The position numbers and the translations under genes were made by a program. The notes under the pieces were generated by a model. That model saw only the letters and a list, made by a program, of their open reading frames with translations, was not told the DNA's origin and searched no databases. From contig NZ_CP049885.1 of the NCBI RefSeq assembly GCF_011303755.1, positions 770,001 to 834,000 of the forward strand: a stretch of 64,000 nucleotides of DNA, given 5' to 3'. This DNA comes from Acidovorax sp. HDW3 (GTDB taxonomy: Bacteria; Pseudomonadota; Gammaproteobacteria; Burkholderiales; Burkholderiaceae_C). Below, in pieces: positions 44,350 through 55,638 of the stretch. Positions within the stretch are counted from its first letter, which is position 1. The number at the start of each line of letters is the position of its first letter.

Positions 44350-46320
44350 TCAAGGGGGCGGGGCGGCCGGCGTTTCGAGTACCTTGCGCTGCGCCTGCAG
44401 CGTGCGCAGGCGCAGCGCGGCCTGCGGGTCGCTGCCCAGGGCGTGGATGGCTTCGTTTTCCTGCTGTTTGATGTGGTCGATGCGCAGGCGGTTGAGCACG
44501 CCGCGCAGCTCGCGCTGGATTTCCGCCAACTCACCCTCGGGTTGGGCGTGGGGGCTGTTCATTAGGCGCAGCGCCAGGTCTTCGCTGCCTTGGCTGCGCA
44601 GGCCCTCGCGCAGCACGGCCCAGGGCTGGGGGCCGTGTTCGTGCCACTGCGCCTCCAGCCAGGCAAACAGAGGGCCGTGTGGCGCGGGTTGCTGCGCCAG
44701 CGCGGCCCAGTCGTCGTGGTCCATGTGCTCAAGAAAATCCATGTGCGACAGCAGCAGGCGCGCGGCCTGGTCGGCGCGGCTGACGGGTGTCGGGCGCGGG
44801 CCCTGGTAGGGCGGCGCGGCATCTTGCCAGGGGCCGCGTTTTTTCCACGTGCCTTTGCTGCGGTAGGCGCCGGCGCCTGTGTGCGCTGGCGCGGGCCAGC
44901 TGCCCCGGTTGCCCTGGCCAGCGTCGCCGGCCTGGGCGTGGGGCGGGGCAAAGTCGCCCTCCCAGGGGGGGGCGCTGCTGCCGCCCGGTGCGGGCGGGCG
45001 GGCGTTGCTGGTGGGTTTGCTGTGGTGCCACAGGTCCCACAGTTCGCTGCTGTCGAGCTGGCCGCGCTGCGCCAGCTCGGCCAGCAGCTGGCGTTTGAGG
45101 GCGCCGTCGGGCAGGGCGCCCCACAGTGGCTGGGCATTGCTCAGCATGTGGGCACGGCCTTCGGTCTGGCCCAGGTCGCAGCCCTCGGCGGCGGCTTCGA
45201 GCACGAAGCGGCTCAGCGGCAGGGCGGCGCCGACGTGGCGCGCAAAGGCTTCCGGGCCGTGGGCGCGGATGAAGCTGTCGGGGTCGTGCTCGGCGGGTAG
45301 AAACAAAAATTTGATGCTGCGCGTGTCGCTGGCGTAGGGTAGGGCGGCGAGCAGCGCCTTGTGCGCCGCGCGCCGGCCAGCGTTGTCGCCGTCAAAGCTG
45401 AACACCACCTGCTCCGTAAAGCGAAACAGCTTGTGCACATGCTCGGCAGTGCAGGCCGTGCCCAGGGTGGCGACGGCATTGGCAAAACCCAGCTGCGCCA
45501 GCGCCACCACGTCCATATAGCCTTCGGTGACGAGGGCGTAGCCCTGGTCGCGGATGGCCTGGCGGGCCTCGTACAGGCCGTATAGTTCCTGGCCCTTGTG
45601 AAAGACGGGGGTTTCGGGCGAGTTGAGGTATTTGGGCTTGGCATCGCCCAGCACGCGCCCGCCAAAGCCGATGCACTCGCCCTTGACGTTGCGGATTGGG
45701 AACATGATGCGGTCGCGAAAACGGTCGTAGCGCTTGCCGTCCTCCTCGCCGACGATGACCAGGCCCGACTCTTGTAGCAGCGGATCGTCGTAGGCCGGAA
45801 AGACACTGGCCAGGCTGCGCCAGCCCTCGGGCGCGTAGCCCAGGCCGTAGCGCTTGGCGACGATGCCACTGACGCCGCGCTGCTTGAGATAGGCGATGGC
45901 GTGGGGCGCTGTCTTGAGCTGCTGGCAGTAGGCGGTGCCGGCGCGTTCGAGCACCTCGCTCAGGGTGTGCTGCTTCTCGCGCGCAGCGGCTGCCTGCTGG
46001 CGCTGGTGTGCCGGGGTGTCGTCCTGCGGCACGGCCAGGCCCACGCCCTGGGCCAAATCTTGCACGGCTTCCACAAAACCCATACCGGCGTGTTCCATGA
46101 GAAACCCTATGGCATTTCCATTTTTGCCGCAGCCGAAACAGTGGTAGAACTGTTTGGAGGGGCTGACGCTGAACGAGGGGGATTTCTCGCCATGGAAGGG
46201 GCACAGGCCCATGAAATTGGCGCCGCCTTTTTTCAGCTGCACATAGCGGCCCACGACCTCGACCACATCGACGCGGGCGAGGAGTTCCTGGATGAATGAC
46301 TGGGGAATGCTCACAGCCAT
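44350..46320 (-). CDS. dnaG: DNA primase DnaG
   Basis: Makes RNA primers for replication. 656 residues: N-terminal zinc ribbon with C40, H43, C61, C64 (CPFHGEKSPSF, HCFGC); the TOPRIM core with TEGYMDVVAL and SFDGDNAGRRAA; and a C-terminal DnaB-interacting helical domain. A Pro/Gly-rich linker (about residues 440-520) is longer than in E. coli. The start ATG at 46320 fits MAVSIPQSF. The order dnaG-rpoD is kept from the macromolecular synthesis operon, but rpsU is not upstream. It overlaps nothing but lies only 19 bp from the divergent PotD-like gene. Confidence 0.96.
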   Translation of the reverse strand: MAVSIPQSFIQELLARVDVVEVVGRYVQLKKGGANFMGLCPFHGEKSPSFSVSPSKQFYHCFGCGKNGNAIGFLMEHAGMGFVEAVQDLAQGVGLAVPQDDTPAHQRQQAAAAREKQHTLSEVLERAGTAYCQQLKTAPHAIAYLKQRGVSGIVAKRYGLGYAPEGWRSLASVFPAYDDPLLQESGLVIVGEEDGKRYDRFRDRIMFPIRNVKGECIGFGGRVLGDAKPKYLNSPETPVFHKGQELYGLYEARQAIRDQGYALVTEGYMDVVALAQLGFANAVATLGTACTAEHVHKLFRFTEQVVFSFDGDNAGRRAAHKALLAALPYASDTRSIKFLFLPAEHDPDSFIRAHGPEAFARHVGAALPLSRFVLEAAAEGCDLGQTEGRAHMLSNAQPLWGALPDGALKRQLLAELAQRGQLDSSELWDLWHHSKPTSNARPPAPGGSSAPPWEGDFAPPHAQAGDAGQGNRGSWPAPAHTGAGAYRSKGTWKKRGPWQDAAPPYQGPRPTPVSRADQAARLLLSHMDFLEHMDHDDWAALAQQPAPHGPLFAWLEAQWHEHGPQPWAVLREGLRSQGSEDLALRLMNSPHAQPEGELAEIQRELRGVLNRLRIDHIKQQENEAIHALGSDPQAALRLRTLQAQRKVLETPAAPPP

Positions 46321-46339
46321 GATTGTCCGTGCAAACACA

Positions 46340-47401
46340 ATGGCCGCGCTGCCCAGGCAGTGGCGCCGCCGTAATTGGCTGCTGGCAGCAACAGCGGCGT
46401 CAGCCGCACTGGTGGGCTGCCAGGCGCGTGCGCGCCAGTCGGTGCTGCGGGTGCTGGCTTGGCCGGGCTACGCCGATCTGGACTGGATACAGGCGTTTGA
46501 GCAGCGCCATGGCGTACGCGTGGAGTTCACCATCATTGGCAGCGATGACATGCTGCGCGCCAACCTCAGCCGCCCGGCCCATGGCGGCTTTGACGTGGTG
46601 GCGGCGAACACCGTCGAGCTCGCTGCGCTGCTGGCGCAGGGGCGTCTGCTGGCGCTCGATCCGGGGCTGCTGCCGCTGCGCGCTGGGCAGCTGCCGCGTT
46701 TTCAGCAGCCCATTGCCGGCACGGCGGCGCAGGGGCGGCTGTACGCCGTACCGTTTACCTATTCCGAGATGGGCTTGATTTACGACCGGCGTCAGTTTGA
46801 GCAGCCGCCGTCGCTGGGCACTTTGTGGGATCGGCGCTGGCAGGGGCGGGTGTTGTTTTTTGATGGCAGCGCGCACGCGTTTTCACTTGCGGCGCAGGCG
46901 CGTGGCTGGGCGCCTTTTGCACTGCAGCCGGCGCAGTTTCCCGTCCTGGCGCGTGACCTGGTGCAGCTGCGGCGCAACCTGCTGGTGTTGTACCGCCTGC
47001 CCGAGGAGCCGGTCGAGCTGTGGGTGCGCCATTCGGTGGCGTTGATGCACGCCAATTACGGCCAGCAGCAGCTCAAGATGTTGCGCGACGCAGGCCTTGA
47101 CGTGGGTTATGTCGTGCCGCGCGAGGGCGCCCTGGCCTGGCTCGATGCCTGGGCGGTGCTGCAAAGCACCCAGCAGCCGCAGCTGGCGCAGCAGTGGATC
47201 AACCACATGCTCGATCCTGCCATTTGCGCTGAGTTTTCCCGCCGCCAGGGCCTGGCCAATACCTTGCAGGAGCCCGCTGGCCTTGATGCCGCCAGCCTGC
47301 GCGGCTCTATTGTTTGGCTTGAACCGGTGGAAGATGAAGAGCAACGCCAGCGCTGGTGGCGCCGCATCGTTGCCGGTGACCGGTTGCAGGGGGTGGCCTG
47401 A
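46340..47401 (+). CDS. PotD-like periplasmic solute-binding lipoprotein (NspS-like sensor)
   Basis: A 353-residue bacterial type 2 periplasmic binding protein of the spermidine/putrescine class. It has an N-terminal RRRNWLL stretch and a lipobox ALVGC (C27), so it is probably an anchored lipoprotein. The binding-protein pattern VLAWPGYADLDWIQAFEQRH, GFDVVAANTVELAALLAQG, VPFTYSEMGLIYDRRQF follows. No permease or ATPase genes are near. Instead the stop overlaps the start of a Cache-HAMP-GGDEF gene by one base (TGATG). This is the arrangement of V. cholerae NspS-MbaA, where a PotD-like protein reports polyamines to a cyclic-di-GMP enzyme. ATG at 46322 is an alternative start. Confidence 0.82.
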   Translation: MAALPRQWRRRNWLLAATAASAALVGCQARARQSVLRVLAWPGYADLDWIQAFEQRHGVRVEFTIIGSDDMLRANLSRPAHGGFDVVAANTVELAALLAQGRLLALDPGLLPLRAGQLPRFQQPIAGTAAQGRLYAVPFTYSEMGLIYDRRQFEQPPSLGTLWDRRWQGRVLFFDGSAHAFSLAAQARGWAPFALQPAQFPVLARDLVQLRRNLLVLYRLPEEPVELWVRHSVALMHANYGQQQLKMLRDAGLDVGYVVPREGALAWLDAWAVLQSTQQPQLAQQWINHMLDPAICAEFSRRQGLANTLQEPAGLDAASLRGSIVWLEPVEDEEQRQRWWRRIVAGDRLQGVA

Positions 47402-49080
47402 TGCGCTGGAATATGGGACAGCGTTTGGGGCTGCTGCTGGCGAGTTTTAGTCTGCTGGCCTCGGTGCTGCTGGGCTACCTGGGGTTTAACGCTGGGCGCA
47501 CGCTGCTGGAGCAGCGCGCCAGCCAAGCCTTGCTCGACACCACGCGCATTCTGGCGGCGCATTGGCAGAGCGGAATCGATCAGGTGGGGCAGGATGTGCA
47601 GGCCCTGGCCGAGCTGGCTGCTCGCCTGCCCGCCAGCGCCCCCAGCACAGGCCAACAGCAAAGCCTGGCCGACGCCTTTGCCTCCCTGCTGCACAGCCAC
47701 CCTGACTATTTACAGGCGCGCTGGATTGGCCGTCAGGGGCATGGGCTGGAGCTGGTGCATGTGCGCCAATGGGTCGATGCCCGGATCGAACGGGTCGGTG
47801 GTCCCGCGTTGCAAGAGAAGGGGCATTTGCCTTTTGTGTACGAAACCCTGCAACTGCCGCGTGGTGCGGTGTACGTGAGTGATGTCGGTCTGAACCATGA
47901 AGACGCCCAAGATTGGCGCGACCCGCCGATGTTCTACGTTGCCGTGCCCGTGGTGCCAGCAGCGGGTGCAGCCACTGGGGTGGTGGTGCTGCGCATTGAT
48001 GCGCTGGCTTTTTTGGCGCGTATGCGCAGCGGGTTGCCATCGGACTACCAACTGTTTTTGACCAACCGCTGGGGGGACTTTTTGTTGCACCCGGACAGCG
48101 CCTTGGCATTGGGCTTTGAGCGTGGGCGGCGGGCCCTGGTGCAAGAGCAGTTCCCGGCCACCCAGGCGCTGCTGCAGACGGGTGAGCGCAGCGCCTTGTT
48201 TGCCCATAGTGATGCCCAGGGCAACGTCCAGAGCGTGGCTTTTGTGCGGATGCCGTATGGCGGCGTGGACGATGGCCGATTTTTGCTCCTGGGCCTGGCA
48301 CAGGCCATGGCTGGGGTGCAGGCCGATACCCAGGCTCTGGGCATTGCCACGTTGCGTATGGTGGCGTTGCTGGCTTTGCTCGGTGCATTGCTGGCCGCCT
48401 GGGCCTCGCGCATTTTCATTGGGCCCTTGCGCGCCGTGGTGCAGGCGGCGCAGGCGTTTTCGCTCGGGCGTGCGCATGGCTCGTTGCCGGTGCAGCGCCA
48501 GGACGAACTGGGTGATTTGGCGCGCAGCTTTCAGGACATGGAGGGCATCATTGGCGCGCAGCTGCAGGAGCTCAACCGCAGCCGTGACGCCATGGAGCAC
48601 CTGGCGCACCACGACGCCCTCACCGGCCTGCCCAACCGCCGCATGTTCACGCAATGCCTGCAGCAAGCCATCGAGCGTGCGCGCCGCAGCGGGCGACCGC
48701 TGGCGCTGGTGTTCGTCGATCTCGATGGCTTCAAGGCCATCAACGACAGCCTGGGCCACGCCGTGGGCGATGCCGTGCTGCAGGCCACGGCCCAGGCCAT
48801 CCGGGGTGCCGTGCGCCAGAGCGACATCGTCGCCCGCCTGGCCGGCGATGAATTCACCGTGCTGTGCGAGAACGTCGATACCCCCGAGGCCGCCCAGGCC
48901 CTGCTGCACAAGCTGGCGCAGGCGTTTGCGGCGCCGCTGGCCGTGGGCGAGCGCACCCTGCCGGTGCGTGCCAGCATGGGGCTGAGCCTGTTCCCGCAAG
49001 ATGCAGAGGAGGCAGAGGGCCTGCTGGGCAGCGCTGATGCCGCCATGTACCAGGCCAAAACCGCTGTGTCGCGTACTTGA
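47401..49080 (+). CDS. Cache-HAMP-GGDEF diguanylate cyclase coupled to the PotD-like protein
   Basis: A 559-residue membrane diguanylate cyclase. A helix at about residues 8-30, a periplasmic Cache domain (to about 315; contains PMFYVAVPVVPA), a second helix near 320-340, a HAMP segment (FIGPLRAVVQAAQAFSLGR) and the GGDEF domain. The signature is AGDEF near residues 481-485, a variant seen in active enzymes, with an RQSD inhibitory site upstream. Metal and nucleotide residues (FVDLDGFKAINDSLGH) are intact. It is translationally coupled to the binding-protein gene, so that protein probably controls it through the periplasmic domain. No EAL domain is present, unlike MbaA. Confidence 0.9.
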   Translation: MRWNMGQRLGLLLASFSLLASVLLGYLGFNAGRTLLEQRASQALLDTTRILAAHWQSGIDQVGQDVQALAELAARLPASAPSTGQQQSLADAFASLLHSHPDYLQARWIGRQGHGLELVHVRQWVDARIERVGGPALQEKGHLPFVYETLQLPRGAVYVSDVGLNHEDAQDWRDPPMFYVAVPVVPAAGAATGVVVLRIDALAFLARMRSGLPSDYQLFLTNRWGDFLLHPDSALALGFERGRRALVQEQFPATQALLQTGERSALFAHSDAQGNVQSVAFVRMPYGGVDDGRFLLLGLAQAMAGVQADTQALGIATLRMVALLALLGALLAAWASRIFIGPLRAVVQAAQAFSLGRAHGSLPVQRQDELGDLARSFQDMEGIIGAQLQELNRSRDAMEHLAHHDALTGLPNRRMFTQCLQQAIERARRSGRPLALVFVDLDGFKAINDSLGHAVGDAVLQATAQAIRGAVRQSDIVARLAGDEFTVLCENVDTPEAAQALLHKLAQAFAAPLAVGERTLPVRASMGLSLFPQDAEEAEGLLGSADAAMYQAKTAVSRT

Positions 49081-49177
49081 CAGCTGTTCCCGGGGAATGG
49101 GCGGCGCTATCAGCCAGCTGTCAGATTCAATTGCTGCAATGCAGCATCTTCGTGCCTGAATCATCAAGGAATCCGCT

Positions 49178-50824
49178 GTGACCAGCATCTACGACCAGAA
49201 TCTGCCCCGTACCGAAGCCAACCACGCACCGCTGTCGCCCCTGTCCTTCATCGAGCGCACCGCCCAGGTGTACCCCGAGCGCCTGGCCATCGTGCACGGC
49301 AGCCTGCGCCAGACCTGGGGCCAGACCTACACGCGCTGCCGCCAGCTCGCCAGCAGCCTGCAGCGTGCCGGCATTGGCAAGAACGACACCGTGGCCGTGA
49401 TGCTGCCCAACACCCCGCCCATGGTGGAGGCGCACTTTGGCGTGCCCATGGCCGGGGCGGTGCTCAACACGCTCAACACCCGGCTGGACCCGGAAACCAT
49501 CGCCTTCATGCTCGACCACGGCGAGGCCAAGGCCGTCATCGTGGACCCGGAATTTGCCGCCGTCATGGCCAAGGCCCTGGCGCTGCGCCAGAGCGCTGCG
49601 CCCCTCACGGTGATCGAGGTGCAGGACGCCGAATACGGCCCTGCCGCGCACAGCCTGGGCGGCGTGGACTACGAAAGCTTTCTGGCCCAGGGCGATGCGC
49701 AGTTTGCCTGGCAGCTGCCGGGTGACGAGTGGGATGCGATCGCGCTCAACTACACCAGTGGCACCACCGGCAACCCCAAGGGCGTGGTGTACCACCACCG
49801 GGGCGCGGCCATCAATGCCATCAGCAATGTGCTCGAATGGGACATGCCCAAGCACAGCGTGTACCTGTGGACGCTGCCCATGTTCCACTGCAACGGCTGG
49901 TGCTTTCCGTGGACGGTGGCGGCGCGTGCGGGCGTCAACGTCTGCCTGCGCCGGGTGGACGCCAAGGCCATCTTTGATGCCATTCGCCAGCATGGCGTGA
50001 CCCACTACTGCGGCGCGCCCATCGTGCAGGGCCTGCTGGTCAACGCCCCGGCAGCGCTCAAGGAAGGCGTGCCCGCCGGCGTGAAAACCATGGTGGCCGG
50101 CGCTGCGCCCCCGGCCTCGATGATCGAGGGCATGGAAAAAATCGGTTTTGACCTGACCCACGTCTATGGCTTGACGGAGGTGTACGGCCCGGCCACCGTG
50201 TGCGCGCCGCACGAGGCCTGGGCGCAGCTCGACATTGGCGAGCGCGCGCGCCTGAACGCCCGCCAGGGCGTGCGCTACCACCTGCAGCGCGCCGCCGCCG
50301 TGCTCGACCCTGACACTCTGGAGCCCGTACCGCACGACGGCGAGACCATGGGCGAAATCATGTTCCGGGGCAACATCGCCATGAAGGGCTACCTGAAGAA
50401 CCCGCAGGCGACGCAAGATGCCTTCCGGGGCGGGTGGTTCCACACCGGCGACCTGGCCGTGCAGTACCCCGACGGCTACATCAAGATCAAGGATCGCAGC
50501 AAGGACATCATCATCTCGGGCGGCGAGAACATCTCCTCCATCGAGGTCGAAGATGTGCTCTACCGCCACCCCGACGTGCTTGCCGTCGCCGTCGTCGCCA
50601 AGCCCGACGCCAAGTGGGGCGAGACGCCCTGCGCCTTCGTCGAGCTCAAGGCCGGCGCGCACACCACGGTGGAGGACATCGTGGCGCACTGCAAGCAGCA
50701 CCTGGCCGGCTTCAAGGTGCCGCGCGCGGTGGTGTTTGGCGACCTGCCCAAGACCAGTACCGGCAAGATTCAGAAGTTTGAGCTGCGCCGCCAGGCGGGC
50801 TCGGCGGTGGCCATCAACGTTTAG
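49178..50824 (+). CDS. Acyl-CoA synthetase (AMP-forming, medium/long-chain type)
   Basis: A 548-residue adenylate-forming ligase that activates a fatty or similar acid with CoA. Core motifs are TSGTTGNPKGV (near residues 192-202), GLTEVYGP, WFHTGDLAV, KDRSKDIIISGGENISS and the C-terminal catalytic Lys in PKTSTGKIQK. The start is GTG at 49178. It resembles AlkK-type medium-chain ligases; the exact chain length is not readable. It is followed by a dispersed repeat and a long hairpin terminator. Confidence 0.92.
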   Translation: MTSIYDQNLPRTEANHAPLSPLSFIERTAQVYPERLAIVHGSLRQTWGQTYTRCRQLASSLQRAGIGKNDTVAVMLPNTPPMVEAHFGVPMAGAVLNTLNTRLDPETIAFMLDHGEAKAVIVDPEFAAVMAKALALRQSAAPLTVIEVQDAEYGPAAHSLGGVDYESFLAQGDAQFAWQLPGDEWDAIALNYTSGTTGNPKGVVYHHRGAAINAISNVLEWDMPKHSVYLWTLPMFHCNGWCFPWTVAARAGVNVCLRRVDAKAIFDAIRQHGVTHYCGAPIVQGLLVNAPAALKEGVPAGVKTMVAGAAPPASMIEGMEKIGFDLTHVYGLTEVYGPATVCAPHEAWAQLDIGERARLNARQGVRYHLQRAAAVLDPDTLEPVPHDGETMGEIMFRGNIAMKGYLKNPQATQDAFRGGWFHTGDLAVQYPDGYIKIKDRSKDIIISGGENISSIEVEDVLYRHPDVLAVAVVAKPDAKWGETPCAFVELKAGAHTTVEDIVAHCKQHLAGFKVPRAVVFGDLPKTSTGKIQKFELRRQAGSAVAINV

Positions 50825-50886: not shown

Positions 50887-50947
50887 AAAAATTGGGGTCA
50901 GATTCCAATTTCCTGAGGGAAATTGGAATCTGACCCCAATTTTTTTT
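50887..50947. terminator. Perfect 27-bp hairpin shared by convergent genes
   Basis: Arms at 50887-50913 and 50918-50944 are perfectly complementary over 27 bp with a 4-base loop (TGAG); each arm carries ATTGGGGTCAGATTCCAATT. Both sides have T-runs in the proper sense, so it can terminate both the ligase and the NSS transporter transcripts. The transporter's stop codon lies at its foot. Such GGGGTCAGATTCCAA palindromes are known as repeated sequences in related bacteria; a REP-like mobile origin is possible. Confidence 0.85.
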
Positions 50948-52340
50948 AAAGTCCCTTGAGCATCACCACCAGGATGAGCGCCGGCGTCACCCAGCGCAGC
51001 AGCACGAACAGCACCCCGGCCAGGGCGCCGTTGCGCAGCTGGCCCTGGTTGGACAGCGCCCGGGCAAAGCCCTCGTGCCCCCAGGCCCAGCCCACGCACA
51101 GCGCCAGGCCGATGCCGCCCACGGGCATGAGCAGGTTCGACGAGACGTAGTCTGCCCAGTCGAACACCGTGCGCCCGCCGGGCGTGAACTGTGCCAGCGT
51201 GCTGCCGCTCAGGGCGCTGCCCGCGCCCAGCAGCACCAAAATCACCAGCGTGGCGATGGTGGCGTGGCTGCGGCGCAGGCCCCAGCGCTCGTGCAGGATG
51301 ACCACCGGCACCTCCATGATGGAGAGCATGGCGCCGGTGGCGGCAATCGCCGTGAGGATGAAGAACGCTGCCAGCAGCACCTGCCCGCCGGGCATTTGCG
51401 CAAACACGGCGGGGATGGTGATGAACACCAGCGACGGCCCGGCCGAGGGCGCAAAGCCAAAGCTGAACACCGCCGGAAAAATCGCCATGCCCGCGAGCAG
51501 CGACACCGACAGGTCGGCCAGCATCACCCGCGTGGCCGTGGCCGGGATGTTTTGCTCTGGCGTGAAGTAGCTGCCGTAGGTCATCATCGTGCCCATGCCG
51601 ATGGAGAGCTTGAAGAACGCCAGCCCCATGGCGGTGAGCACCACGGCGGGCGTGATCTTGTGCCACTCGGGCTCGAACAGAAAGCGCAGCGCCGCCCCCG
51701 TGCCCGGCAGCGTCAGGCTGTAGCCGCACAGCAGCAGCAGGAGCAAAAACAGCAGCGGCATGAGCTTTTTCGTCATCGCCTCGATACCCTTGGTCACCCC
51801 CATGAGCAGGATGGCGGCAATGAAGGCCAGCACCAGCCACTGCCACAGCAGCGACTGCACCGGGTCGGCCACCAGGGCGCTGAAGGCGGCTTGCGTGCTC
51901 GCCGGGTCGCTCGAAAGCAGGCGGCCCGAGAGCGCCTTGGCGACGTAGGCAAACACCCAGGCCACGACCTCGGAGTAGAACGACAGGATCAAAAACGCCG
52001 CCACCATGCCCCCGGCGCCAATGAGCCACCAGGGCGCGCCGCCGGGGCTGAGCTGGCGCAGCGCGGTAATGGGGTTGGCCTTGGCCTGGCGGCCTATGCT
52101 GATCTCGGCAATCATCAGCGGCAGGCCGATGAGCAGCGTGGCCAGCAGGTACACCAGCAAAAAGCCCGCGCCGCCGTTGGCGCCGGTGAGGGAGGGAAAC
52201 TTCCAGATATTGCCCAGGCCCACGGCCGAGCCCAGGGTGGCGGCGAGGACGCCAAAGCCAGAGGTAAACCCAGCGCGCGCGGTGGTGTTGGCGGGGGCGC
52301 TGGTAGCGCTGGTGGCGCCGGGGGAGCTTGGTTTGCTCAT
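50946..52340 (-). CDS. Sodium-dependent neurotransmitter-symporter-family (NSS/SNF) transporter
   Basis: A 464-residue inner-membrane transporter with about 12 helices, probably importing an amino acid with sodium. FGVLAATLGSAVGLGNIWKF (helix 1 with substrate and sodium residues), NGGAGFLLVYL, FFKLSIGMGTMMTYGSYFT and VFITIPAVFAQMPGG match the family. The ATG at 52340 starts MSKPSS. Substrate unknown. The upstream 90 bp holds a dispersed repeat copy. Confidence 0.9.
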   Translation of the reverse strand: MSKPSSPGATSATSAPANTTARAGFTSGFGVLAATLGSAVGLGNIWKFPSLTGANGGAGFLLVYLLATLLIGLPLMIAEISIGRQAKANPITALRQLSPGGAPWWLIGAGGMVAAFLILSFYSEVVAWVFAYVAKALSGRLLSSDPASTQAAFSALVADPVQSLLWQWLVLAFIAAILLMGVTKGIEAMTKKLMPLLFLLLLLLCGYSLTLPGTGAALRFLFEPEWHKITPAVVLTAMGLAFFKLSIGMGTMMTYGSYFTPEQNIPATATRVMLADLSVSLLAGMAIFPAVFSFGFAPSAGPSLVFITIPAVFAQMPGGQVLLAAFFILTAIAATGAMLSIMEVPVVILHERWGLRRSHATIATLVILVLLGAGSALSGSTLAQFTPGGRTVFDWADYVSSNLLMPVGGIGLALCVGWAWGHEGFARALSNQGQLRNGALAGVLFVLLRWVTPALILVVMLKGL

Positions 52341-52399
52341 AAATTGATAGCTGCTAGCGCGCATTGGTATTGCGCGGGGGGCGTATTTTGCCTCAAGGA
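52341..52399 (+). repeat. Dispersed repeat copy upstream of the NSS transporter
   Basis: AAATTGATAGCTGCTAGCGC then diverged GCATTGGTATTGCGC and TATTTTGCCTCAAGG. It shares the exact 13-base core with lolA and the reference copy. The rest of the short gap to phoD (52400-52430) shows nothing else. Confidence 0.7.
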
Positions 52400-52430: not shown

Positions 52431-53960
52431 TTAGGCGCGCACCGGCCCGGGGTGGCCGTCGGTGACGACGAACTGCGCCAGGGTGTAGGCCGGGCTGCGG
52501 GCGTCGAGCGGGTTGGCCACGGCGCGCAGCGTGGTGCGCCAGGTCTGCGGCGTGATTTCGGCCAGACCGTAGCCGCGCTCCTCGCAGCGCGCGAGCAGCA
52601 CATGCGGGTTGTGGCGGGCGATGGCGTCCACCTTCTCCTGCGCCGTGCCGCTGCGCGAGCTGATCGAGGTGCTGCAGAACTCGCTCGCCAGCAGGGCGGA
52701 GTCGGGCTGTTCGGCCTTGGCGTGCACCTGGCAGACGTAGTTCTGGTGGATGTCGCCGCCCAGGAACACGGTGTTGCGCTGCGGGTGCTGTTGCAAGCTG
52801 GCGAGCAGGCGCGTGCGCGCTGCCGGGTAGCCGTCCCAGTTGTCGGTGCTTTGCAGGCCCGAGGGGTAGTGGCGTGGCGAGAACAGGGTTTGCTGCGCCA
52901 GCACGCTCCAGCGCGCCGGCGCCTGTGCCAGCTGCGCCGCCAGCCACTGCTCTTGCGCCGGGCCGAGCAGGGTGCGCGCCCGGTCGTGCAGGCTCGGGCA
53001 ATCGCTGGCGCGTACGCTGGCGGCGCCGCTGCGGCCGGGCTGGCGGCAGGCTTGCCAGTCGCGGTACTGGCGGTCGTCGAGCAGGTGGATGCGCGCCAGC
53101 TGGCCCCAATCGAGGCTGCGGTACAGCTGCAGGCCGCCTTGCAGCCAGGCCGTGGCGGACAGGGGCATGTGCTCGTAGTACGCCTGGAAGGCGGCAGCGC
53201 GCTGGGGCGCAAAAGCCTGGGCGCCGTCGGGGCCGGCGCTGCCGGCCCAGTCGTTCTCGACCTCGTGGTCGTCCCAGGTCACGGCCCAGGGGCAGGCGGC
53301 GTGCGCGGCCTGCAGCAGCGGGTCGCTTTTGTACAGGGCGTAGCGGTCACGGTAGTCCTGCAGGGTGCGTGCCAGCGGCAGGTCGTGGCTGCGCGCCAGG
53401 GTGCTGCGCTCGCGCGGGCTGGCGTATTCGTAGATGTAGTCGCCCAGGAACAGCACCAGGTCGGGGGCGTCTTGCGCCGCGTGCCACCAGGCGGCGTATT
53501 GCCCGTGCTCCCAGCGCTGGCAGGAGGCGAACACCAGGCGCAGCTGCGCTGGCAGCTCGCCCGCAGCCGGCGCGGTGCGCGTGCGCCCGGTGGCGCTGGT
53601 GGCGCCGCCGCAGTGAAAGCGGTAGAAGTACCAGCGCCCCGGCTGCAGGCCCTGCAGCTGCACGTGTACGCTGTGGCCCCATTCGGGTGCGGCCAGCGCC
53701 TGGCCGCGTTGCACCGGGCGGCGAAACTGCGCGTCGTGCGCCAGCTCCCAGTGCACGGTCTGCGCTGGCAGCTGTGGCGGGGCGCTGGCCAGGCGCGTCC
53801 ACAGCACCAGGCTGTGGGCGCCGGGCTCGCCGCTGGCCACGCCCAGGGCAAAGGGGTCTTGCTGCCAGGGCTGGGGGTTGGCCCAGGCCCAGCGCGGCAG
53901 TTGCATGGCGCAAGCGGCCAGGGCGGCGCGCTGCAGCCACGCGCGCCGCGCGGCGTTCAT
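52431..53960 (-). CDS. phoD: PhoD-family alkaline phosphatase/phosphodiesterase
   Basis: A 509-residue secreted metal phosphatase. The N-terminus has a twin-arginine signal (AARRAWLQRAALAACA, cleavage near AWA). The PhoD N-terminal domain (PFALGVASGEPGAHSLVLWTR) is followed by the metallophosphatase core: LVFASCQRWEHG, LFLGDYIYEY, TWDDHEVENDW, FLGGDIHQN. Calcium/iron-type cofactor is expected from the family. Its start overlaps the stop of the diguanylate cyclase gene by 4 bp (ATGA). No Pho box was identified. Confidence 0.9.
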   Translation of the reverse strand: MNAARRAWLQRAALAACAMQLPRWAWANPQPWQQDPFALGVASGEPGAHSLVLWTRLASAPPQLPAQTVHWELAHDAQFRRPVQRGQALAAPEWGHSVHVQLQGLQPGRWYFYRFHCGGATSATGRTRTAPAAGELPAQLRLVFASCQRWEHGQYAAWWHAAQDAPDLVLFLGDYIYEYASPRERSTLARSHDLPLARTLQDYRDRYALYKSDPLLQAAHAACPWAVTWDDHEVENDWAGSAGPDGAQAFAPQRAAAFQAYYEHMPLSATAWLQGGLQLYRSLDWGQLARIHLLDDRQYRDWQACRQPGRSGAASVRASDCPSLHDRARTLLGPAQEQWLAAQLAQAPARWSVLAQQTLFSPRHYPSGLQSTDNWDGYPAARTRLLASLQQHPQRNTVFLGGDIHQNYVCQVHAKAEQPDSALLASEFCSTSISSRSGTAQEKVDAIARHNPHVLLARCEERGYGLAEITPQTWRTTLRAVANPLDARSPAYTLAQFVVTDGHPGPVRA

Positions 53961-55486
53961 GCCGGCACGACGCGGTTTTTGCCGGCGCGCTTGGCCAGGT
54001 ACATGCCTTGGTCGGCGCGGCGGATGGCGTCGGTGCTGCTTTCGGTTGGGCCCAGCTCGGCCACGCCGGCGCTGAAGGTGATGAGCAGCTTTTCGTTGTT
54101 TTGCAGGAAAAACCGCGTCGTCAGCTCGCGCTGCAGGCGCTGCATGGCCTGCACGCCCTGGGCCTGGGTGGTGTCGGGCAGCACGAGCACGAATTCTTCG
54201 CCGCCGTAGCGCGCCAGCATGTCCTGCGGGCGCATGACGGAGCGCGTGACCTCGGTCAGGTGTTGCAGCGCGGCGTCGCCGCTGGCGTGGCCCAGGCGGT
54301 CGTTGAGGGCCTTGAAGTTGTCAATGTCGAGCAGCGCCACGCACAGCGGTGAGCCCAGGCGGCGCGCGCGGGCGATTTCGCGCTCCATGGCTTCGTCCAG
54401 GCCCTTGCGGTTGAGGGCGCCGGTCAGGGGGTCGTGGCGCGCCAGGGCGCTGGCCTGGTCGAGTTCTTCTTGCAGGCGTGAGATTTCGGCGCGTTTTTCT
54501 TCCGCGCGCTCACGCAGGGTTTGCAGCTCTTCGTGTGCGATGCGGCTGTCGAGCGCCATGGCGCGGGTGGCGTTCATCACCTCTTGCAGCACCGGGGTGA
54601 TGTCTTCGAGCCGGCTGGCCTGGCCGATTTGGTCGGCGCAGCGTTCGAGTGTGAGGTGGAACTGGTCGCTGGTGGAACAAATGCTGGTCAGGCGTTCGAT
54701 GAAGGTGGCGAGCAGCTCCTTCATTTGTTCCTGCGCTTCGTTCGAGCGGGCGCGGGCTTCGGTTTGTTTGAAGATGACGTCTTTGAGGCGCCGCTGCACG
54801 TCGTCGAGGCGGCGCAGGCTCAGCGGCGGGGTGGCTGCGGCCATCAGCGCCTCGGCCTGGCCGCGCAGCCAGTCGTCGTTCGGGCTCAGGGCGGAGATGT
54901 TCTCGAACACCAGGTGCAGCAAGGTCAGCAGCCCGAGGCGGATGGCCTGTAGCTCTTCGGCCGAGAACGACAGGCGGTAGCTGAAGTTGGCCAGCAGCAG
55001 CGTCAGGGTGGAGCTGGGTGGGTGGTTGGTGCGCAGCAGCTGCGTGATCTCCAGCGCCATGTCGTGCACGCGGGCGTCGTCTTCGCTCAGGATGGTGCGC
55101 AGACTGTCGAGCAGGCGGGCGATTTGTTCGGCCAGGTCGTTGGGCAGGACTTGCAGGGGGGCTGGCTCGGGCGGTGGCAGGGCCGTGCCGGCGGCTTGCA
55201 GGCCGAGGTTGGCGTAGCCGACGAGCACGCTTTGCAGCGCCGTCCAGTCCTGGCGGTGCACGGCGGCGCCGAATTGTTCGAGCAGGCGGATCTGCGGGGG
55301 AGTTTGTGCTGGCAGCACGCGCATGATGGCGCGCAGCTGGCCTTCGGGAAAACCCAGGCTGGCAGCGGGCACGCCGGCGATTTCGGCATATACCGCCTGG
55401 TAATGCTCGGGCGTGGGCGCGAGTCGGCGCAGGGCCAGCTGTTTGAGGGTTTCGCGCGCGATATCGGAGGTGGTGCGTTCTGCCAT
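53957..55486 (-). CDS. GGDEF-domain diguanylate cyclase (GGEEF)
   Basis: A 509-residue protein with a helical N-terminal region (about 1-340; LKQLALRRLAPTPEHYQAVY is found at the start of this family), a coiled coil (AHEELQTLRERAEEKRAEIS) and a C-terminal GGDEF domain with GGEEF, an RPQD inhibitory site, and LLDIDNFKALNDRLGH. All catalytic residues are intact. No membrane helix is seen. It is translationally coupled to phoD downstream. The ATG at 55486 starts MAERTTSD. The signal it receives is unknown. Confidence 0.9.
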   Translation of the reverse strand: MAERTTSDIARETLKQLALRRLAPTPEHYQAVYAEIAGVPAASLGFPEGQLRAIMRVLPAQTPPQIRLLEQFGAAVHRQDWTALQSVLVGYANLGLQAAGTALPPPEPAPLQVLPNDLAEQIARLLDSLRTILSEDDARVHDMALEITQLLRTNHPPSSTLTLLLANFSYRLSFSAEELQAIRLGLLTLLHLVFENISALSPNDDWLRGQAEALMAAATPPLSLRRLDDVQRRLKDVIFKQTEARARSNEAQEQMKELLATFIERLTSICSTSDQFHLTLERCADQIGQASRLEDITPVLQEVMNATRAMALDSRIAHEELQTLRERAEEKRAEISRLQEELDQASALARHDPLTGALNRKGLDEAMEREIARARRLGSPLCVALLDIDNFKALNDRLGHASGDAALQHLTEVTRSVMRPQDMLARYGGEEFVLVLPDTTQAQGVQAMQRLQRELTTRFFLQNNEKLLITFSAGVAELGPTESSTDAIRRADQGMYLAKRAGKNRVVPA

Positions 55487-55609
55487 GGGCCATGCCAAGC
55501 GGTAGCGTTGGACGGCTGCGAGTGTGACAGAAGAAGCGGCCCGCTGTGGCCGTGGCTCTTGGGTTGTTGCGTCGGTGGCACGCTTTCGGTGTGCTGTGAA
55601 CGCCCACCC

Positions 55610-55615
55610 TACAAT
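55610..55615 (+). promoter_or_regulatory. -10-like hexamer of the probable surE promoter
   Basis: TACAAT, 23 bp before the surE ATG; the -35 is weak. It stands in the 152-bp divergent gap shared with the diguanylate cyclase gene; nothing else was recognised there. Confidence 0.4.
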
Positions 55616-55638
55616 CGGGCGCACTGCGATGTGACCCT

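Follow-up and report, generated by a model that had tools for sequence, protein, structure and literature searches.

We investigated what a PotD-like binding protein (SBP) senses when its gene overlaps that of a membrane diguanylate cyclase, as in Acidovorax sp. HDW3 in the window, by which we mean the whole 64-kb stretch of DNA analyzed (64,000 nucleotides). A sequence-only reading of this locus had proposed polyamine sensing by cyclic-di-GMP (c-di-GMP). The best explanation, to which we assign a probability of about 0.5, is that the two genes form a periplasmic sensor in which a sugar-type ligand on the SBP sets c-di-GMP synthesis through the dCache domain of the enzyme.

The gene pair and its conservation

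The pair is laid out as follows, with predicted domain boundaries:

46340..47401, + strand: SBP gene, 353 aa, PotD fold (SBP_bac_8)
46340..46420, + strand: putative signal peptide with lipobox LVG-C27, from the sequence
47399..47403, + strand: TGATG junction, SBP stop and enzyme start with a 1-nt overlap
47401..49080, + strand: membrane diguanylate cyclase gene, 559 aa, with dCache sensor, HAMP and GGDEF
47500..48342, + strand: periplasmic dCache sensor domain, residues ~34-314, by fold match to 3lid/3lie/2p7j
48400..48540, + strand: HAMP domain, residues 334-380, by Pfam
48604..49065, + strand: GGDEF domain, residues 402-555, by Pfam
48814..48855, + strand: RQSD (I-site, 48814-48825) and AGDEF (active site, 48841-48855)

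Both reading frames are open and intact, and one A serves both the stop codon of the SBP and the start codon of the enzyme (CCTGATGCG), confirming the tight coupling claimed earlier for the two genes. The SBP start is ambiguous (ATG 46340 or the in-frame ATG 46319). Upstream lies the divergent gene dnaG on the opposite strand, and because its start is only ~20 bp from ATG 46319, the pair must be transcribed from a promoter within dnaG; a scan of 46150-49250 returned no promoter-like sites and no sigma-70 consensus, and terminator-like sites did not exceed the shuffled level. An acyl-CoA synthetase gene lies downstream of the pair. Queries with eight E. coli Pot proteins detected no Pot transporter genes in the 64-kb window, in agreement with the reported lack of transporter genes nearby, and PotD alone matched, at the SBP itself. 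Elsewhere in the window, a second GGDEF protein (53957-55624, − strand, 554 aa, GGEEF motif), in which no further Pfam domain was detected, is encoded ~5 kb downstream of the pair, and a PhoD-like phosphatase gene (52431-53960, − strand) adjoins a sodium:neurotransmitter-type symporter gene (50946-52364, − strand).

The SBP matched SBP_bac_8 in Pfam (1.9e-22), and the NCBIfam models PotF, YdcS and PotD all matched far under their cut-offs, so by sequence it ranks as a relative, not an equivalog, of these proteins. Its AlphaFold2 model (mean pLDDT 90.7) was closest in the PDB to YdcS (Z 31.4, rmsd 3.5, 307 aligned), with S. pneumoniae PotD (Z 31.1, rmsd 2.9, 306 aligned) and other polyamine SBPs also among the fold matches. 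The enzyme matched GGDEF (4.7e-47) and HAMP (6.1e-9), and dCache_1 under the Pfam cut-off (24.1 vs 45 bits). No PDB match to the sensor domain was found by sequence; in the predicted structure (mean pLDDT 86.8), which contains a dCache domain and a GGDEF domain, the former aligned with 3lid/3lie/2p7j (Z 24–25; for 3lid and 2p7j, Z ~24.6, rmsd 2.8–3.1, 261–263 aligned), and the modelled sensor domain has a dCache fold despite the sub-cut-off Pfam score. The window enzyme stops after GGDEF, and EAL is absent. Its GGDEF-type active site reads AGDEF and is predicted to be active; variants in the first residue of this motif have been called functional (PMC9993111). These results uphold the earlier descriptions of a PotD-like SBP and of a Cache-HAMP-GGDEF partner with a synthesis domain only.

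The sequence-only reading had also called the SBP a lipoprotein. In the window strain this is likely, given the LVGC lipobox, but among 116 rows of enzyme-paired SBPs (which are not 116 independent species; some are probably the same assembly twice, e.g. G085 and L229) a credible counterpart was found solely in the nearest relative (L206), with doubtful ones in seven more rows. Lipid anchoring as a family trait was rejected.

A survey of 200 genomes from the same family gave strong matches to the SBP in 23 (E ≤ 1.7e-72; next genome 9e-18) and to the sensor in 23 (E ≤ 3.3e-108; next genome 4.6e-52). They were the identical 23, and the other 177 held neither at equal strength. The two genes were neighbours in 23/23 genomes, the gap between them in the 22 relatives ranging from −4 to +79 bases, and the co-occurrence (23/23 vs 0/177; Fisher p ~1e-30, relatedness ignored) and adjacency are far beyond chance. 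In the named loci, which were drawn from a species collection and include Acidovorax, Comamonas, Curvibacter, Rhodoferax, Pseudomonas, Aquitalea, Undibacterium, Thauera, Paraburkholderia and Gallionella, the enzyme was directly downstream in 79 of the 79 with downstream sequence (of 80; L220 ends at a contig edge). This count includes L226, L243 and L254, where tblastn found the enzyme directly downstream and which are labelled unpaired in the pocket table and, where sampled, in the tree. Conversely, all seven other PotD-like loci were without a partner enzyme within 1.5 kb. dnaG adjoined the pair in only 4/22 loci; therefore, the pair is kept while its neighbourhood changes. The co-occurrence proposed earlier as a check on the pair thus held, and SBP and enzyme are an obligate unit. 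Literature on this pair was not found among open-access papers, judged by titles and the starts of abstracts.

RxxD and A/GGDEF were present in 22/22 family-level partners, 20 of which are GGDEF-only, judged by length. The partner in L047 (3976-8139) carries PAS, GAF and EAL, and that in L048 (3973-8136) is of equal length, from which alone its extra domains were judged. From wider scans, the partners in L120 and L143 (2511-5591) also have EAL, the output in L143 being GAF-GGDEF-EAL. As a separate observation, the SBP-sensor unit is stable and its output exchanged in L047, L048 and L143 (long PAS/GAF-GGDEF-EAL or GAF-GGDEF-EAL). Several Pseudomonas partners have an intact GGDEF but lack RxxD. 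L057, whose SBP is incomplete, was excluded from the SBP alignments, and L047 and L048 from alignment A2.

Phylogenetic position and transporter-linked relatives

A maximum-likelihood tree was built from 110 SBPs (all genome-scan rows, plus the 80 named loci sampled one in three) and rooted at the midpoint, with a long-branch warning for controls, PotD and PotF. Paired SBPs and the orphan SBPs described below formed one group of 76 rows (100/98). Its sister comprised eight ABC-linked SBPs (joint branch 100/97), seven of them with a pentose-type cluster, although the grouping of the eight was weak (91/29). Eleven further ABC-linked SBPs followed outward (joint 100/99), and PotD, PotF and the control SBPs fell outside the paired and ABC-linked groups. 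Identity to the window SBP was ~35% for the pentose-type SBPs and ~20% for PotD/PotF.

The ABC-linked SBPs come from another class of the phylum (order and phylum scans), and their genes are followed by an ABC ATPase gene and two permease genes. When one of these genomes served as the centre of another order-level scan, 17/249 genomes gave a match at 1e-40 or better. Their neighbours encode IlvD/Edd dehydratases, enolase-type dehydratases, aldose epimerases, an SMP-30-type lactonase, an AraD1-type protein, SDRs, RbsD/FucU and aldo/keto reductases, and some loci are on Rhizobium plasmids. We scored seven marker types (IlvD/Edd, aldose epimerase, enolase-type dehydratase, SMP-30, FAH-like, UxaA and RbsD/FucU), with seeds drawn from loci other than those scored. 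At least one type was present in 12/13 non-seed ABC-linked loci (L286-L297, but not L298) vs 0/12 other PotD-like ABC loci of the same phylum (Fisher p 2.7e-6, relatedness ignored), and Pfam counts of the neighbour genes agreed. In the ABC-linked group closest to the paired SBPs, the dehydratase of L287 passed the NCBIfam cut-off for L-arabinonate dehydratase (885.7 vs 882), those of L159 (853.9) and L160 (870.6) falling under it; the FAH-like protein of L159 passed the GguC/AraD1 family cut-off (497 vs 340), and an SDR was nearest to the D-xylose 1-dehydrogenase XylB, under the cut-off (358 vs 400). Some of these PotD-like ABC systems in sugar-acid clusters (L290-L297, L165, L166) would be labelled polyamine-type by sequence models. 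L194-L198 make up another PotD-like ABC group, and control neighbours were recurrently ADP-ribosylglycohydrolase, PfkB kinase and aconitase X genes.

This sugar context is located at the loci of the sister SBPs, away from the paired ones, where specific sugar markers were found in 0/80 named loci. Transporter genes in these 80 loci were limited to a potI/potC-like gene in L284 and an ABC ATPase gene in L250 and L266. The neighbours of the paired loci gave no hint of the ligand, with no recurrence of either sugar or polyamine genes among them. The GguC/AraD1 family is absent from the source strain's own genome, and its co-occurrence with the pair in the bacterial family was not significant (2/23 vs 6/177, p 0.23).

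A sugar-type ligand, in our judgment an even bet, is the best single view of the ligand class suggested by these relationships. The ligand may also be another of those bound by PotD folds, such as an amino acid derivative, a GABA-like amine, a phosphonate or an opine-like sugar conjugate: the fold matches include the GABA SBP (4eq7) and MotA, an SBP for sugar-amino-acid opines (5l9p, 6tg3), and the agropine-permease SBP (6hly) was matched by sequence for the ABC-linked relatives. However, outside the paired and orphan group the nearest SBPs, by identity and in the tree, are those of the sugar clusters, and we regard such a ligand as unlikely.

The ligand pocket and a candidate contact

The pocket residues were assigned to PotF/PotD columns by sequence alignment:

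46460..47146, + strand: span of the putative pocket residues W41 (46460-46462), G43, Y44, D69, N90, T91, E93, H179 (46874-46876), N239, Y240, Q243, Q244, W267 and D269 (47144-47146)
46970..46978, + strand: R211-R212-N213, candidate contact to the partner

Across 250 polyamine SBPs, PotF W37, D247, D278, E185, D39 and R254 are the most conserved positions, the carboxylates D39, D247, E185 and D278 each reaching at least 96% (PMC8666671). In all 116 paired rows, W37 corresponds to W, D39 to G, E185 to H and D278 to D (D269 here). At D247 the usual residues are R, Q, T and S, W244 is N in 114/116 (N239 here) and F276 is W in 115/116. Three of the four amine-binding carboxylates of PotF are replaced, D278 alone being retained. 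The change at D39 alone is not telling, because 11/12 control SBPs, which are other PotD-like SBPs and not proven polyamine binders, share the Gly. Invariant in the 116 paired rows are W41, G43, Y44, D69, N90, H179, G241, Q243, Q244 and D269.

The seven pentose-type SBPs (7/7) and the paired SBPs have D69, N90, T91, H179, N239, Y240, Q243, Q244, W267 and D269 in common, whereas the 11 remaining ABC-linked SBPs have different residues at D69, N90, H179 and Y240. We favour a sugar-type ligand because the paired SBPs are sister to sugar-cluster ABC SBPs that share most of the altered pocket. Paired and pentose-type SBPs differ at E93 (Q in the latter), 142–143, A/C270 and L305, and the ligand may therefore be related, rather than identical, to that of the transporters.

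Polyamine sensing as in NspS-MbaA, where a rearranged acidic pocket would bind a polyamine and switch the cyclase, appears more doubtful still. It would agree with the nearest solved structures, which are polyamine SBPs and YdcS, and with a gene order equal, and an overlap similar, to those of NspS-MbaA (PMC9993111). In the residue check proposed by the sequence-only reading, the aromatics W41, Y44 and W267 are retained along with D269, and this acid with D69, E93 (115/116 paired rows) and, usually, E/D143 could provide an alternative candidate cationic site, but D39 and E185 are replaced in every paired row, D247 mostly by R, Q, T or S, and W244 by N. The replaced carboxylates demoted the polyamine pocket from its place as leading view, and together with the closest transporter relatives, which lie in sugar-acid loci, they speak against the polyamine ligand claimed earlier.

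Nine SBPs from the order and phylum scans (L130, L132-L139) were orphans, with no cyclase or importer genes directly adjoining; in L138, an unrelated PotF-like gene lies ~3 kb away. They formed one group within the paired SBPs (86/84), and the pairing was therefore probably lost there once, in a single event. A partner elsewhere in the genome was considered and rejected: 5/9 orphan genomes encode a large dCache multidomain protein whose match (1e-17 to 1e-24) is weak and seems to reflect dCache homology in general, and 4/9 were without any sensor match elsewhere. R212 is R in 115/116 enzyme-paired SBPs and in 0/9 orphans, marking it as a candidate contact to the partner enzyme, although this contrast may reflect a single event because the orphans form one clade. 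It is very unlikely that the SBP regulates or stabilises the cyclase independently of any ligand, with the dCache domain as the real ligand sensor, as direct ligand binding by dCache in other cyclases (SpdE, PMC8846402) might suggest, because the pocket columns are invariant in the 116 paired rows and nearly all kept in the orphans, which argues for a bound ligand.

Proposed mechanism and comparison with known systems

In our proposal, the PotD-fold SBP, probably lipid-anchored in the source strain, would capture a small ligand and close, and in one of its states would dock on the periplasmic dCache domain of its partner. The change would pass via HAMP and set the rate of c-di-GMP synthesis, which product feedback at the RxxD site would limit. 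Because the window enzyme has no hydrolase domain, the response would be synthesis switched on or off. The ligand would most likely be sugar-type, whether an aldose, a sugar acid or a lactone, and may be a pentose. This preference would descend from the sugar-type SBPs of ABC transporters, one member of that clade having been re-used as a sensor subunit. We infer that SBP and enzyme are in physical contact, as well as the direction of the response and the ligand class; docking of the loaded SBP on dCache is proposed because of the analogy with NspS-MbaA, and stimulation of diguanylate cyclases by SBPs is an accepted mechanism (PMC9602780; PMC8967002).

More tentatively, the pair may stand for a large family of two-gene receptors, not previously described, in which sensing of a sugar or sugar acid, probably pentose-type and from plant matter, drives c-di-GMP synthesis without import or degradation in Comamonadaceae, Pseudomonas, Aquitalea, Rhodoferax and others. 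If the ligand is indeed a plant sugar, plant-derived carbon would bear on whether many soil and water bacteria form biofilms. Few diguanylate cyclases have a known signal. Here a single sensory pair is conserved in many species, and its dedicated binding protein lends itself to ligand screening in vitro. The results also carry a warning: PotD-like SBPs are named "spermidine/putrescine" by default, yet a whole clade of them is encoded with sugar-acid enzymes.

PotF and PotD share with the window SBP the PotD-type fold and the aromatic W37 and Y40 positions; the window SBP differs in the three replaced carboxylates and in having no adjoining ABC transporter genes. Within the sugar-type PotD-fold SBP clade defined here, the paired SBPs group with ABC-linked members, apart from PotD/PotF, but specific sugar catabolic markers, which lie near the transporter members, were found in 0/80 paired loci. 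In LuxP-LuxQ, an SBP likewise acts on a dCache-type periplasmic sensor, but the output is a histidine kinase, the ligand is autoinducer-2 and the SBP family is another. ArtI is part of an arginine transporter, whereas the window SBP is a dedicated neighbour gene of its cyclase. ArtI-STM1987 of Salmonella resembles the window pair in joining an SBP to a dCache diguanylate cyclase, both of which are required for the response to arginine (PMC8846402).

The closest parallel in gene arrangement is NspS-MbaA of Vibrio cholerae and Sinorhizobium meliloti, where, as in the window, a PotD-like SBP gene lies upstream of and overlaps the gene for an inner-membrane sensor-HAMP-GGDEF enzyme. In S. meliloti, the neighbours of nspS-mbaA are described as unrelated to polyamines or c-di-GMP (PMC9993111; PMC8967002). 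In NspS-MbaA, it is the closed form of the SBP that binds the sensor, which promotes cyclase activity (PMC8967002). MbaA is a GGDEF-EAL protein with SGDEF and no RxxD, whereas the window enzyme has GGDEF only, with AGDEF and RxxD (RQSD). The pockets also differ: the contact residues of NspS are W41, D70, D90, F131, Y233, D236, W261 and D263 (PMC9993111), and in the corresponding columns, which were inferred through PotF and not from the NspS sequence, the window SBP appears to keep both W and the last D, the positions of D90, Y233 and D236 being replaced. The window genes are a real, conserved sensor pair and a widespread variant of the SBP-plus-diguanylate-cyclase systems of the NspS-MbaA type.
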